Shown: positions 4,047 to 11,745 of the stretch, in pieces
Numbering within the stretch: the stretch's first letter is position 1
How the letters are laid out: every line of letters starts with the position of its first letter
Assembly (NCBI GenBank): GCA_018057825.1
Contig: JAGPCY010000027.1
Coordinates: forward strand, 1 to 64,000
Source of the DNA: Kofleriaceae bacterium
Lineage (GTDB): Bacteria > Myxococcota_A > Polyangia > Haliangiales > Haliangiaceae
Reading direction: 5' to 3'
Length of the DNA: 64,000 bases
Position numbers and translations under genes: made by a program
Notes under the pieces: generated by a model
Databases searched by the model: none
What the model saw: only the letters and a program-made list of their open reading frames with translations
What the model was told of the DNA's origin: nothing

Positions 4047-5264
4047 ATGAGCGTCATCCCGCCCGAGCTTCCGGATGTCGGCGCGACGTCGCAGCGCCTG
4101 CGCCAGAACCCGGCCTTCGATCCGCTCAAGGCGGGCTTCGGGACCGAGGAGTACTTCGTGTGGTCGCGCTTCGATGGCGCGACCTCGCTGAAGGATCTGA
4201 TCCTCATGACCGGGCTGGCGGTCGAGCGGGCGATCGCGATCGTCCGGGCCCTGCGCGCCGCCGGCGCGATCCTCTTGCCCGGTGAGGCGGCGCCGCCCGC
4301 GGCGCTGTCCGCCGGCGCGCGCCCGACCTCGCCGCCGCCGACGTCGGCGCGGCCGAGCGCCGGGGCGGCCGCGACCCGGGTCACCCAGCCGATGCCGGTG
4401 GCCGCGCCGCCCGCGGCGAGCCGCACCCGTACGACCGCGCCGATGCCCGCGGCCGCGGCGCCGCCGATCCCCAGCGCCGACGGTCTGGCGGTCGGCACCG
4501 CGCCGGTCGCGACCGAGACCTTGCCGGTGCCGACGCTCGAGCAGCCGACCGCCGCCGAGCGCGCCGCGATGGCGGAGCCCGGGGACCTCTCGCTCGACGA
4601 GAAGGCCCGGGTGCTGGCCGGCCTGCGCCTGGTCGCCGCGGGCGATCCGTGGGCCCTGGTCGGCGTCGCCGCCGGCGCCGAGAAGCGGGCCATCAAGCGG
4701 GCGTTCTTCGAGCGCTCGAAGCTCTACCACCCCGATCGGTTCTACGGCCGCCAGCTCGGGGCCTGGCAGGGGCGGCTCCACGCCGTGTTCGAGGCGATCT
4801 CGGCGGCCCACGGCCAGCTCGTCGAGAACCGGGCCGCGCGGGCCTCGTCGGCGCCGGTCGACGCTCCTCCCAGCGAGCCGCAGAGCCCGGCCGAGTACGC
4901 CGCCGAGCTGTTCGAGCGGGCCTGCCAGGCCGAGGTGTCGGGCGACCTCGCGGCCGCCGGCCGGCTGTTCGCCGCCGCGGTCAAGCTCGACCCCAGCCCG
5001 CGCTACCTGCGGCGGGCCGCACACTGCGCGCTGGCCGCGGGCGAGCCGCGCACCGCGCTGGCCTACGCCAACAAGGTGGCGGCCGCCGAGCCGACCGATC
5101 CGTCGACGGCCCGGATCCTGGCCCGGGCCCTGCGCGCGGTCGATCGCGCCGACGACGCCGAGGAGGTGCTGGTGATGGCGCTGGCGATGAAGAACGAGAA
5201 CGACACCCTGGCCGCCGAGCTGGCGTCCGACCTGGCCAGCGTGCGGGCCGCGCTGCGCCGCTGA
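4047..5264 (+). CDS. J-domain protein with N-terminal helical module and C-terminal TPR-like region
   Basis: A 405-residue co-chaperone candidate. Residues about 20-75 form a small helical module (WSRFDGATSLKDLILMTGL) also seen at the C-terminus of the protein at 7244-8671. A Pro/Ala/Thr-rich linker follows. Residues about 205-260 are a J domain with the essential HPD (about 228-230, LYHPDRF). The last 120 residues look like TPR helices. J domains stimulate Hsp70 ATPase, and an Hsp70 gene starts 143 bp downstream, so the two probably work together. ATG 4047 is preceded by GTGCTACCGT, a possible -10 region. It has no Gly/Phe or zinc-finger region, so it is not canonical DnaJ. Confidence 0.8.
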   Translation: MSVIPPELPDVGATSQRLRQNPAFDPLKAGFGTEEYFVWSRFDGATSLKDLILMTGLAVERAIAIVRALRAAGAILLPGEAAPPAALSAGARPTSPPPTSARPSAGAAATRVTQPMPVAAPPAASRTRTTAPMPAAAAPPIPSADGLAVGTAPVATETLPVPTLEQPTAAERAAMAEPGDLSLDEKARVLAGLRLVAAGDPWALVGVAAGAEKRAIKRAFFERSKLYHPDRFYGRQLGAWQGRLHAVFEAISAAHGQLVENRAARASSAPVDAPPSEPQSPAEYAAELFERACQAEVSGDLAAAGRLFAAAVKLDPSPRYLRRAAHCALAAGEPRTALAYANKVAAAEPTDPSTARILARALRAVDRADDAEEVLVMALAMKNENDTLAAELASDLASVRAALRR

Positions 5265-5407
5265 CCGGTGCCGCCGACCGGCGCGGGCCCGCGCGGGTGA
5301 CCGGGGCCGCTGGCGGTTGACCGCGGGGCGGTGATCGCCGCGCGCGGCGCGCCGTTTGCCCCCCGAGCCCTGGCCAAGTCACCGGATCCCTGAGAAGATC
5401 CCTCGAC

Positions 5408-7240
<1,833 letters not shown>

Positions 7241-7243
7241 TCG

Positions 7244-8671
7244 ATGCGCCCGGCCCGGCCTTCCCCCACCCAGGCCAGCGTCGAGCGACTGCTCGGCGAC
7301 GGCCTCGACCGCTACCGCTACGGCGACTACGACGGGGCGATCGAGACCTGGGAGCGCGCCCTGGCGCTCGATCCCGACGAGTACCGGGCCGCGGCCTGGG
7401 TCGAGTTCGTGCGCGCACATCACGACGCCCTGCTCGGCGCCGAGCCGGTCGCCGAGCACCTGGTGCCGTTTGGCCTGGCCGGCTCCGAGGACGGCGCCGA
7501 CTACCAGATCGAGATCGAGTACCCGACCGAGCGCCTGGCCGAGCCGGCGGTGGCCGACGGCTGGGGGCTGTCGGCCGAGCTGGGCGCGACCGCGACCATC
7601 GAGCTCGACGCCGACGAGCCGGGGCCGGCCGCGGCGCCGAGCGCCGGCGAGCTGTTCGGAGACGACGACGACGCCACCACCGACTACGCCAGCCTGAGCC
7701 TGGGGCCGGCCCGGCCGCGGCCCGCGGTCAGCGACGACTCCGGCGAGGCCACCCTCGGCCACTACCGCGGCCAGCCGTCCGGTCCCCTCGAGCTCGACCT
7801 CGAGCTGGGGCCGGCGCTGCCGTCGCCGCCGCCGCGCCACGACTTCGCGAGCCGCGAGGCCTCGGCCGAGGTGACCCTCGAGCGCGCCGCCCACGATCAT
7901 CGCCGGACCGAGCCGGGCGGATCGGGCCCGCCGATCGCGCTGCCGATCGTGGCGCCGCCGCCGGTCGCGGCGCCGAGCTCGGCGGGGTTGGCGATCAGCG
8001 AGCTGACCCTCGATCTCGATCCCACCGCGGCCGCCCTCGAGCTCGGCATCGAGGCCTCGGTCCCGAGCGAGCCGCCGCCGCCGCCGCCGCGCTCGGCCAC
8101 GATCGATCTCGGCATCGCGGTCGAGGAGCTGCGCCTGCCGCCGCCGCCGCGCCCGCTGGCGCCGGTCGACAACGACGACGATCACCCGGCGCGCCCGGCC
8201 GCGGTGCCGGCCGGCGTGCTGGCGGCCCAGCTCTTGGCCGAGGTCGATCGCGAGCGCCGGCCCGGCGAGTCGACCGACGACATCGCCCGCCGGCGCATCA
8301 GCCTGCTCATCGAGCGGGCCCGGACCGCCGCCGCTCGCGACGAGCGCGACGTGGTCGCGGTCGCCCTCGACCTGGCCCTGGCCGAGTCGCCCGACAGCGC
8401 GGTCGCGCAGAAGCTCATCCACCGCCACCGCGACGTCGTCCTCGATTGCTACTACCGCTACCTCGGCGCCCTCGATCGCCGGCCGGTGCTGGCGGCGGCG
8501 CTGACCAAGGACAGCGGCGCCGGGCTCGATCCGCGGGCGGCCTTCTTGCTGTCGCGGATCGACGGCATGATGACCTACGACGAGCTCCTCGACGTCGCCG
8601 GCATGGGGCGGCTCGAGGCCTGCCGGCATCTGGTCGCGCTGGTCGGGCGCGGGTTGGTGCGGACCACATGA
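7244..8671 (+). CDS. TPR-like protein of the Hsp70 cluster, function unknown
   Basis: A 475-residue protein starting 3 nt after the Hsp70 stop. The N-terminus has a TPR-like pair (LDRYRYGDYDGAIETWERAL). The middle 250 residues are acidic, Pro/Ala-rich and probably disordered. The C-terminal 90 residues (YYRYLGALDRRPVL to GMMTYDELLDVAGMGRLEA) form a helical module like the one at the start of the J-domain protein at 4047. A shared module in two proteins of one cluster suggests a common partner. There are no signal peptide, membrane helices or catalytic motif. It may be an adaptor linking Hsp70 to the FHA activator next door; that is inference. Confidence 0.65.
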   Translation: MRPARPSPTQASVERLLGDGLDRYRYGDYDGAIETWERALALDPDEYRAAAWVEFVRAHHDALLGAEPVAEHLVPFGLAGSEDGADYQIEIEYPTERLAEPAVADGWGLSAELGATATIELDADEPGPAAAPSAGELFGDDDDATTDYASLSLGPARPRPAVSDDSGEATLGHYRGQPSGPLELDLELGPALPSPPPRHDFASREASAEVTLERAAHDHRRTEPGGSGPPIALPIVAPPPVAAPSSAGLAISELTLDLDPTAAALELGIEASVPSEPPPPPPRSATIDLGIAVEELRLPPPPRPLAPVDNDDDHPARPAAVPAGVLAAQLLAEVDRERRPGESTDDIARRRISLLIERARTAAARDERDVVAVALDLALAESPDSAVAQKLIHRHRDVVLDCYYRYLGALDRRPVLAAALTKDSGAGLDPRAAFLLSRIDGMMTYDELLDVAGMGRLEACRHLVALVGRGLVRTT

Positions 8672-8684
8672 GCGGAGGTGCGCG

Positions 8685-10034
8685 ATGCGGGTGACCCGAG
8701 TGACCAACCAGCGCGACGCGCTGTTCGGGCGGGCCTCGCGCCTGCGCATCCTGGCCGGCCCCGAGGCCGGGCTCGAGGTCGAGCTGCCGGCGGTCGGGGT
8801 GGTGGTCGGCGCCGACCCCGGCTGCGACGTCGCGCTCACCGATCCCGCGGTGTCGGGACGGCACTGCTCGATCGCGCCCAACCCGGCCGGCTTCACCGTC
8901 ACCGACCTGGGCTCGAAGAACGGCACCTCCCTCGACGGCGTGGCGATCGGCAAGGTCACGGCACCGCCGGGCGCGGTGATCCGCGTCGGCAAGACCCTGC
9001 TCCAGCTGCTGCCGGCCGACGAGGTGGTCGACATCCCGCCCTCGGCCCGGGCCAACTTCGGCGCGCTGTGGGGCGACTCGCCGCCGATGCGCCGGGTGTT
9101 CTCGATGCTCGAGCGCGCGGCCGGCACCGACGCCTCGATCCTGTTCCTCGGCGAGAGCGGCTGCGGCAAGGAGCTGGCGGCCCGGGCGGTCCACGACGAG
9201 AGCCGGCGCAAGGACGCGCCGTTCGTGGTGTTCGACTGCGGCGCCGCGACCGAGACCCTGATCGAGAGCGATCTGTTCGGCCACGTCCGCGGCTCGTTCA
9301 CCGGCGCGGTCAGCGATCGCGAGGGCGCCTTCGCCGCCGCCCACAAGGGCACCCTGTTCCTCGACGAGATCGGCGACCTGCCGATCGGGCTCCAGCCCAA
9401 GCTCCTGCGCATGCTCGAGGCCGGCGAGGTCATCCCGGTCGGCAGCCGCAAGCCCGAGCGCTACGACGTCCGGGTGGTGGCCGCGACCCACCGCGATCTG
9501 GTCGGCGAGGTCGCGCGCGGCGGCTTCCGCGGCGACCTCTACTATCGCCTGGCGGTGGTCGAGGTCCACCTGCCGCCGCTGCGGCAGCGCCGCGAGGACC
9601 TGGCCAAGCTGGTCGAGCTGTTCCTGACCCGGGCCGGGGCCAGCCACCTGATCCCGACGATCGGCGGCGCGTCGCTGGCGCGGCTCGAGTCCTACCACTG
9701 GCCGGGCAACGTCCGCGAGCTGCGCAACGTGATCACCCGCGCGGTCGCGCTGGCCGGCCCGGCCAAGAGCTTCGCCGAGCTGCCGATCATGTTGCGGCCG
9801 ACCGCGGCGGCGCCGGTGGCCGATCCGGTGGTCCGCGCCGATCGGCCGTTCCACGAGGCCAAGGCCGAGGTGATCGAGCGCTTCGAGCGCGCCTACCTGA
9901 CCGATCTACTCGAGCGCGCCGGCGGCAACCTGAGCCAGGCCGCGCGCGACGCTGGCCTCGAGCGCAAGTTCCTGTACCGGGTCCTCGAGCGCGCCGGCCT
10001 GCGCGCCAAGTCGGCGGGCGGCGACGACGAGTGA
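8685..10034 (+). CDS. Sigma-54-dependent activator with N-terminal FHA domain
   Basis: A 449-residue enhancer-binding protein. Residues about 15-100 are an FHA phosphothreonine-binding domain (SGRHCSI, LGSKNGT). The AAA+ domain follows, with Walker A GESGCGKE (about 156), Walker [12 protein letters not shown] and the WPGNVREL region. A Fis-type HTH (NLSQAARDAGLERKFLYRVL) ends the protein. The sigma-54 contact loop reads GSFTGA rather than GAFTGA. FHA in place of a receiver domain implies control by a Ser/Thr kinase. ATG 8685 has a good RBS (GGAGGTG). It closes the Hsp70 gene cluster, which may be its target. Confidence 0.9.
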   Translation: MRVTRVTNQRDALFGRASRLRILAGPEAGLEVELPAVGVVVGADPGCDVALTDPAVSGRHCSIAPNPAGFTVTDLGSKNGTSLDGVAIGKVTAPPGAVIRVGKTLLQLLPADEVVDIPPSARANFGALWGDSPPMRRVFSMLERAAGTDASILFLGESGCGKELAARAVHDESRRKDAPFVVFDCGAATETLIESDLFGHVRGSFTGAVSDREGAFAAAHKGTLFLDEIGDLPIGLQPKLLRMLEAGEVIPVGSRKPERYDVRVVAATHRDLVGEVARGGFRGDLYYRLAVVEVHLPPLRQRREDLAKLVELFLTRAGASHLIPTIGGASLARLESYHWPGNVRELRNVITRAVALAGPAKSFAELPIMLRPTAAAPVADPVVRADRPFHEAKAEVIERFERAYLTDLLERAGGNLSQAARDAGLERKFLYRVLERAGLRAKSAGGDDE

Positions 10035-10056: not shown

Positions 10057-11745
10057 TCACACCAGCGGATCGAGAGTGTCGTCGAGGGGGGCCGGGGGCG
10101 GGCGGGTCGCCAGCGGCGCGAGCACCGGATCGATCCAGGTGAAGAACCGCGGGCAGCGCAGGCCGGCGTCGCCGAGGAGCGCGCAGGTCTCGACGGTGGC
10201 GAGGTGGGCGCGCGACGCCACCAGGGCCAAGAGCGCGGTCGGCAGGGTCGCCACCCGATCGAGCCCGGGCGTGCGCAGGATGGCCTGGGTCAGCGATCGC
10301 GGCAGCGCCCCGCGCAGCGGCGGCCGTCCGGCCAGCGCCGCGGCGTGATCGAGGGCGGCGCGCACCGACGGCGGCTCGGGATCGACCAGGTGGAAGACCC
10401 GGCCCGCGGCCCGGGGCTCGGCGCCCAGGAGCGCGGCCGCGGCGATCGCGAAGTCGGCGCGCACGATGTGGAGCGGGCCGGCGCCGTCGCCGGGCAGCGG
10501 GAGCTGGAGCGCGGCGGCGCGCCGCGCGACCAGGCGGAACAGCGCCAGCGCGGTCCGGCGCTCGCCGATCGGTCCATCGACGATGTGGCCGACGCGGACG
10601 ATCGTGATCGGCAGGCGCGCCATCGCCGCCACCGCCAGCGCCTCGGCCTGGTACGCGGCGCGGGCCTCCCCGGTGGTGGTGATCGGCGGCGCCGGCAGCG
10701 GGGCCTCGGCGACCCGGCCGATCGTGCCGCCGACCACGTCGACCGGCGACCAGTGGATGAGGCGACGCAGGCGCGGGGCCTCGGCGGCCAGCTCGAGGAC
10801 GCCGCGGGTGCCCTCGACCACCGCGGTCCGGTAGGGCAGGAGCCCGCTCGGCTGCGGGCAGGCCGGGGCGACGTGGTGGATCGTCGTCACCGCGGCCAGG
10901 AGCGCGCGATACTCGGCGGTGGCCAGGCCGAGATCCATCGCCGCGACGTCGCCGGTCACGATCGCGACGTGGCCGAGCGGCGCCAGGGTCGCGGCGGTGG
11001 CCTCGGCGGCCGCGGCGCCGACCAGGACGGTCAGCTCGGCGGAGGGCGCCGTGCGCCGCAGCTCCCGGCACAGCTCGAGGGCCAGGGGATCGGGCGCGCC
11101 GGTCACCAGCACGTGCTCGCCGCGCGGCGCCGCGACCAAGGGGCCGAAGCGATCCTCGAGGCGGTGCCACAGCGCGTCGACCTCGGCGGTCAGGGCCGCG
11201 CGATCGCCGCGGTTGTCGACCACCCAGGTGGCGGCGGCGAGCTTGTCGGCCAGCGGGAGCTGGGCCGCCAGGCGGGCGGCGATCTGCTCGTCGGTCAGGC
11301 CGTCGCGCCGCGCCAGGCGCGCGGCCTGGACCTCGGGGCTGACCGCGACCACGATCGTGCCGGCCAGGCCGCGGTGTAGGCCGTTCTCGACCAAGAGCGC
11401 GGCCTCGTAGAACACCACCGGCGCCCCGGCCCGCGCGGCGGCGGCGATCGCGGCGGCGGCGGCGGCGGCGATCCGCGGGTGGGTGATGCGATCGAGATCG
11501 CGGCGGGCCTCGGGATCGGCGAAGGCCTTGGCCGCCAGGGCCGGGCGATCGAGCGTGCCGTCGGCGCGCACGATGTCGGCGCCGAACCGCGCCACCAGCT
11601 CGGCCAGGGCCGGCTGACCCGGCAAGACGATCTCGCGCGCGAGCTGATCGGCGTCGACCACCGCCGCGCCGCGGTCGCGCAGCATCGCCGCGACCGTGCT
11701 CTTGCCGCTGGCGATACCGCCGGTCAGGCCGATGATCGACGCCAC
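10057..11745 (-). CDS. coaE: Dephospho-CoA kinase fused to an NAD(P)-binding SDR-like domain
   Basis: A 562-residue fusion in one uninterrupted frame. Residues 1-200 are CoaE: P-loop [12 protein letters not shown] (about 6-17), [14 protein letters not shown], the [11 protein letters not shown] lid region and a C-terminal helix. This part phosphorylates dephospho-CoA, the last step of CoA synthesis. The remaining 350 residues resemble extended SDR/thioester-reductase-like proteins: [17 protein letters not shown], the [13 protein letters not shown] helix, [11 protein letters not shown] and [13 protein letters not shown]. No clear YxxxK is visible, so activity of this half is uncertain. GTG 11745 is supported by a TAGCAA box 5 nt upstream. 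The 3' end converges with the FHA activator gene. Confidence 0.85.

Follow-up and report, generated by a model that had tools for sequence, protein, structure and literature searches.

What is a reductase-type domain doing at the end of a dephospho-CoA kinase (CoaE), and is the joint between the two genuine? The window, by which we mean the whole 64,000-nucleotide stretch of Kofleriaceae bacterium DNA analysed here, holds one open reading frame that the initial annotation had read as CoaE followed by a Rossmann-type domain. Below, we describe the gene and its two halves, trace the fusion through related genomes, and consider what the second half may contribute to the kinase.

The fusion gene and its two domains

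The frame encodes a 562-aa product in which a complete dephospho-CoA kinase (aa 4-181) is followed by an extended-SDR domain (aa 209-552), and matches to PF01121 and PF07993 bear out the reading of a single frame of 562 codons on the minus strand. The gene is laid out as follows.

10057..11745, minus strand: coaE-SDR fusion gene of 562 codons, with a GTG start at 11745, the last codon at 10060 and the stop at 10057-10059
11203..11736, minus strand: dephospho-CoA kinase domain, aa 4-181 (Pfam PF01121, E=6.1e-54), whose P-loop GGIASGKS starts at aa 9 (11721, running down) and whose DAD starts at aa 31
11122..11160, minus strand: linker of 13 residues, aa 196-208, flanked in the predicted model by helix 182-200 and strand 211-217, with a dip in pLDDT
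10090..11121, minus strand: extended SDR domain of thioester-reductase type, aa 209-552, with degenerate catalytic residues, assigned by profiles and by fold match to the myxalamid R domain
10060..10089, minus strand: C-terminal acidic tail ending DPLV (D-P-F/L-x in the family), with low pLDDT at 551-562

The CoaE half passed the curated cut-offs of both PF01121 (182.9 bits vs. 27) and TIGR00152 (152.8 bits vs. 65.55; E=9.4e-45). When aligned with E. coli CoaE (6ari), it matched at the P-loop GGIxSGKS, the DAD and the lid RD. It is the sole CoaE above cut-off in a genome that is 99.7% complete, a profile search having found no second copy. The motifs and this single-copy status support the prediction that the window gene encodes a working CoaE.

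In the SDR half, NAD_binding_4 (PF07993) matches aa 256-433 (E=1.2e-11). TIGR01746 (E=8.8e-15, 54.8 bits) and PRK07201 (E=7e-23, 81.2 bits) also match, below their curated cut-offs of 213.35 and 549. PRK07201 is the best NCBIfam match of the SDR family to which this half belongs, reaching 7.8e-73, yet scores fall far under its 549-bit cut-off. The best PDB match, by sequence profile and by fold, was to the terminal R domains typified by myxalamid MxaA (4u7w/4w4t, TIGR01746). The predicted SDR fold superimposed on the myxalamid terminal reductase (4w4t) with a Z score of 30.7 and an rmsd of 3.1 over 318 residues, so that a Rossmann fold of R-domain type is present; a relative with an intact tetrad, encoded by a separate gene, fits the same R domain better (Z 35.7). 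Together, the profiles (TIGR01746, PRK07201 and NAD_binding_4) and the predicted fold support assignment of the SDR half to the acyl-thioester reductase type, in agreement with the thioester-reductase-like SDR first suggested. R domains differ in that they end PKS/NRPS, whereas the partner of the window SDR is CoaE and its catalytic dyad is missing. No other close member or second intact copy of this SDR family was found in the 99.7% complete genome.

The two-domain model has a mean pLDDT of 91.7 over its whole length and a pTM of 0.78; the predicted arrangement of the CoaE and SDR domains relative to each other is tentative. An internal ribosome site was not evident when the linker was inspected by eye. 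At the fusion gene, neither a sigma-70-like promoter nor a terminator-like site was found, which is uninformative here. Many fused and adjacent members of the SDR family share the acidic, low-confidence tail, which in them ends D-P-F/L-D/A; the window keeps DPLV.

A regulator with FHA and sigma-54 activator domains (window 8685-10034, plus strand) is convergent with the fusion gene and ends 22 bases from its end. A similar FHA-sigma-54 regulator also lies downstream in other fused loci and is among the neighbours conserved in Kofleriaceae. In the window it stands in a row (4047-10034, plus strand) with an Hsp70 gene (5408-7240) and two proteins of unclear family. Comparison of neighbours revealed no larger conserved operon around coaE-SDR that would point to a pathway.

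Distribution and origin of the fusion

Fifteen genomes of the window's family (Kofleriaceae type), its own included, carry the CoaE-SDR fusion in one open frame; they span four genera, and the full-length matches are 47-62% identical. The named records that carry it are labelled Kofleriaceae, Myxococcales or Deltaproteobacteria. This distribution bears on the concern, raised at the outset, that a frameshift, read error or mis-assembly had joined two genes. The two genes are indeed adjacent and close in other families; but the same in-frame joint in 15 genomes, assembled separately and belonging to several genera, makes an artefact extremely improbable, and we rejected it.

The SDR family itself is far more widespread than the fusion. 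Its profile matched at 1e-30 or better in 241 of the 318 genomes of the class, and members were also found in other classes of the phylum. Among 63 named loci, 18 were fused, 25 had separate coaE and SDR genes on the same strand, and 20 had no coaE within the DNA examined; the latter came mostly from Polyangiales-type genomes, and a few were cut by a contig end. The 25 separate pairs are often arranged head-to-tail, with gaps nearly all below 100 nt. Among 20 further loci, fusions were confined to the window's family. The gene states are strongly grouped on the tree, requiring 3 changes vs. 28.7 in shuffles.

The question of whether close relatives keep the genes apart thus has a divided answer: the window's genus and most of its family have the fusion, in other families the two genes lie side by side, and coaE without the SDR is found in a few family members. 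Family loci with coaE and no adjoining SDR are L016, L022, L025, L026 and L029; the family genome G017, to which L016 belongs, and the genera g2 and g3 have coaE with no such SDR match. In L016 (G017:C296), coaE ends after about 217 codons and the genome has no SDR match at 1e-30. Secondary loss of the SDR half is probable at this locus.

Since coaE and the SDR gene are separate, and often close, outside the window's family, the fusion arose in Kofleriaceae by the joining of a conserved two-gene unit. In our reading, the ancestral unit was coaE followed by a gene for a putatively NADPH-dependent SDR of acyl-thioester-reductase type; the gene order is seen in the genomes, and the cofactor and substrate are inferred. 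After the joining in Kofleriaceae, the branch of the window and its sister lost three residues of the reductase half's catalytic tetrad (Asn, Tyr and Lys) along with several cofactor contacts, losses that are visible in the alignment.

Residues lost and kept in the SDR half

The positions concerned are listed below, all assigned by alignment.

11080..11100, minus strand: cofactor loop G216-A-P-D219-P-L-A222, in which the position of the second glycine is Asp (GFPxFxA in the family; GGTGFLA in 7eoz)
11017..11019, minus strand: G243, at a position after strand beta-2 where many members of the family, though not all, have Arg
10819..10821, minus strand: V309, replacing the Asn of the catalytic tetrad (NVxGT motif)
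10747..10749, minus strand: S333, the sole retained residue of the N-S-Y-K tetrad
10654..10668, minus strand: E360 and A364, replacing the Tyr and Lys of YxxxK
10591..10593, minus strand: V385, replacing the Pro of the RP motif near the nicotinamide site

In place of the catalytic N-S/T-YxxxK pattern the window has V-S-E-A, and the initial annotation was right to find no obvious YxxxK. The cofactor loop TGxxGxxG is reduced to TGAPDPLA, with the first glycine alone left. Within the SDR family the loop reads GFPxFxA, the second glycine being mostly Ala or Ser, and it resembles the GxxGFLA loop of the fatty acyl-CoA reductase 7eoz. Since 7eoz also has Ala at the third glycine, the family loop alone is no argument against cofactor binding; the window's own loop is one.

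The nearest sister of the window (G003, L002/L095) shares most of these losses: its tetrad is R-S-D-A, and neither the Arg that follows beta-2 nor the RP proline is left. Elsewhere, fused and adjacent relatives mostly keep N-S-Y-K, and five other genomes assigned to the window's genus retain Tyr and Lys. Asn and Ser were invariant in all 52 aligned rows that keep both Tyr and Lys; some contigs are represented twice among these rows, once from each of two collections, and because rows were chosen by Tyr and Lys, with neither Asn nor Ser used in the choice, this conservation is informative. Further losses occur in L054/L008. In the Polyangiales-type loci L064-L093, which are not beside coaE, the Tyr and Lys of YxxxK are lost (V/A and R/L/M/Q) and Asn, Ser and Pro remain. 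Thirteen Polyangiales-type loci have a common neighbour family, whose scanned member carries a GDSL-lipase domain.

In a related carboxylic acid reductase, an Ala substitution of either the Tyr or the Lys left no activity, and exchanging the first two loop glycines for Ala lowered it strongly (PMC5826065). Judged from its residues and from these mutants of related domains, the window SDR half most likely no longer reduces anything. We consider it quite unlikely that this half remains enzymatically active by another mechanism or on another substrate. Such activity would make the protein bifunctional, as is probably the case for relatives whose tetrad is intact. Fusion to CoaE and the acyl-thioester reductase type would suit such an enzyme, whose substrates would be CoA or carrier thioesters, and a changed mechanism via S333 is conceivable. 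Moreover, the fold, the first glycine, the Asp of GD, a His, the Ser and an Arg are kept, and the codon positions indicate that the domain is still constrained. Against this, Asn, Tyr, Lys, the second loop glycine position, the Arg after beta-2 and the Pro of RP have all been replaced, and either of the Tyr or Lys changes to Ala is enough to kill a related reductase domain. The proposal of a coupling between CoA synthesis and a reaction that uses an acyl thioester or NAD(P) is plausible for the N-S-Y-K relatives and unlikely for the window, where catalytic and several cofactor residues are gone. The more modest idea that the second half may only bind nucleotide is weakened by the loss of the second loop glycine and of the Arg after beta-2.

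The SDR half has diverged faster in the window and its sister than in intact relatives. The SDR halves of the window and its sister share 39-42% identity with intact relatives, vs. 62% among the intact ones, at similar CoaE identity, and the two lie on a long branch (1.54 plus 0.94). Such divergence also fits slow decay, and the SDR half could be a relic on a needed kinase, kept only for want of a deletion so far; the family member with coaE alone (G017, L016) is in line with this. We nevertheless regard a relic as unlikely, given the open frame, the confident fold, and the retention of 54 of the 80 conserved non-catalytic positions of the family, about two thirds. Codon positions also speak against it. 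Between the window and sister SDR halves, differences reach 39% of the random expectation at position 2 and 73% at position 3, near the 19-36% and 63-83% of the intact pairs compared; we used this measure because NG86 dN/dS is unreliable at this G+C and distance. We read the faster divergence and these signs of constraint together as relaxed but continuing selection on the SDR half after the loss of catalysis. This reading assumes that the loss predates the split of the two lineages, an order of events to which their common Lys-to-Ala change points.

Possible roles of the retained domain

Taken together, we think it reasonably probable that the gene encodes a working CoaE carrying a retained C-terminal pseudo-reductase, the SDR half being kept for something that it does for CoaE in cis, be it stabilisation, scaffolding or regulation. 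Most likely, the pseudo-reductase would stabilise or oligomerise the kinase, by analogy with mycobacterial CoaE, which needs its C-terminal UPF0157 domain for folding (PMC2765170). Alternatively, the SDR half may use its former substrate cleft to sense a ligand, either a nucleotide or one of CoA type. The choice among stabiliser, oligomeriser and sensor rests on analogy. Not every related CoaE needs such a partner, since G017, g2 and g3 have coaE without it. More tentatively, and we hold this doubtful, the reductase half could have turned into a pseudo-reductase that senses a ligand and governs the final step of CoA synthesis in cis, its ancestor being an enzyme for CoA thioesters that worked beside CoaE. 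Those Polyangiales homologues that have likewise lost Tyr and Lys and no longer neighbour coaE would then have taken a parallel non-catalytic turn.

A pseudo-reductase serving another enzyme has a parallel in NDUFA9, the 39 kDa subunit of complex I, which is non-catalytic. NDUFA9 is an accessory subunit with an SDR fold, a structural part of another enzyme, and the fold matches that of the window SDR with a Z score of about 27. It differs in that it is related to the window SDR only weakly by sequence and is a complex I subunit, not fused to a kinase.

The known CoaE fusions are those with UPF0157 and with CoaD. In animal bifunctional CoA synthase, the partner of CoaE is the preceding enzyme of CoA synthesis and lies N-terminal to it. 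This CoaD-CoaE protein (2f6r) resembles the window product in that CoaE is part of a fusion protein. The CoaE-UPF0157 (GrpB) protein of mycobacteria (NF002879, PDB 6n39) is like the window product in having an extra C-terminal domain after CoaE, and differs in that this domain is UPF0157, whereas that of the window is an SDR. The window protein had no Pfam match to a UPF0157/GrpB domain, and its match to NF002879 was confined to aa 5-195 and fell below the cut-off. A search of the open-access literature found no published CoaE-SDR fusion, and one may exist elsewhere.

CoaE is an essential enzyme and is present as a single copy in the genome read. The pairing of coaE with a reductase gene is widespread in the phylum and ties CoA synthesis to a reductase of acyl-thioester type. 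One family has the pair as a fusion, and within it one branch has most likely given up catalysis. The separate genes, the fusions with an intact tetrad, the fusions without it and the kinase alone form a natural series for asking what a partner domain does for CoaE.
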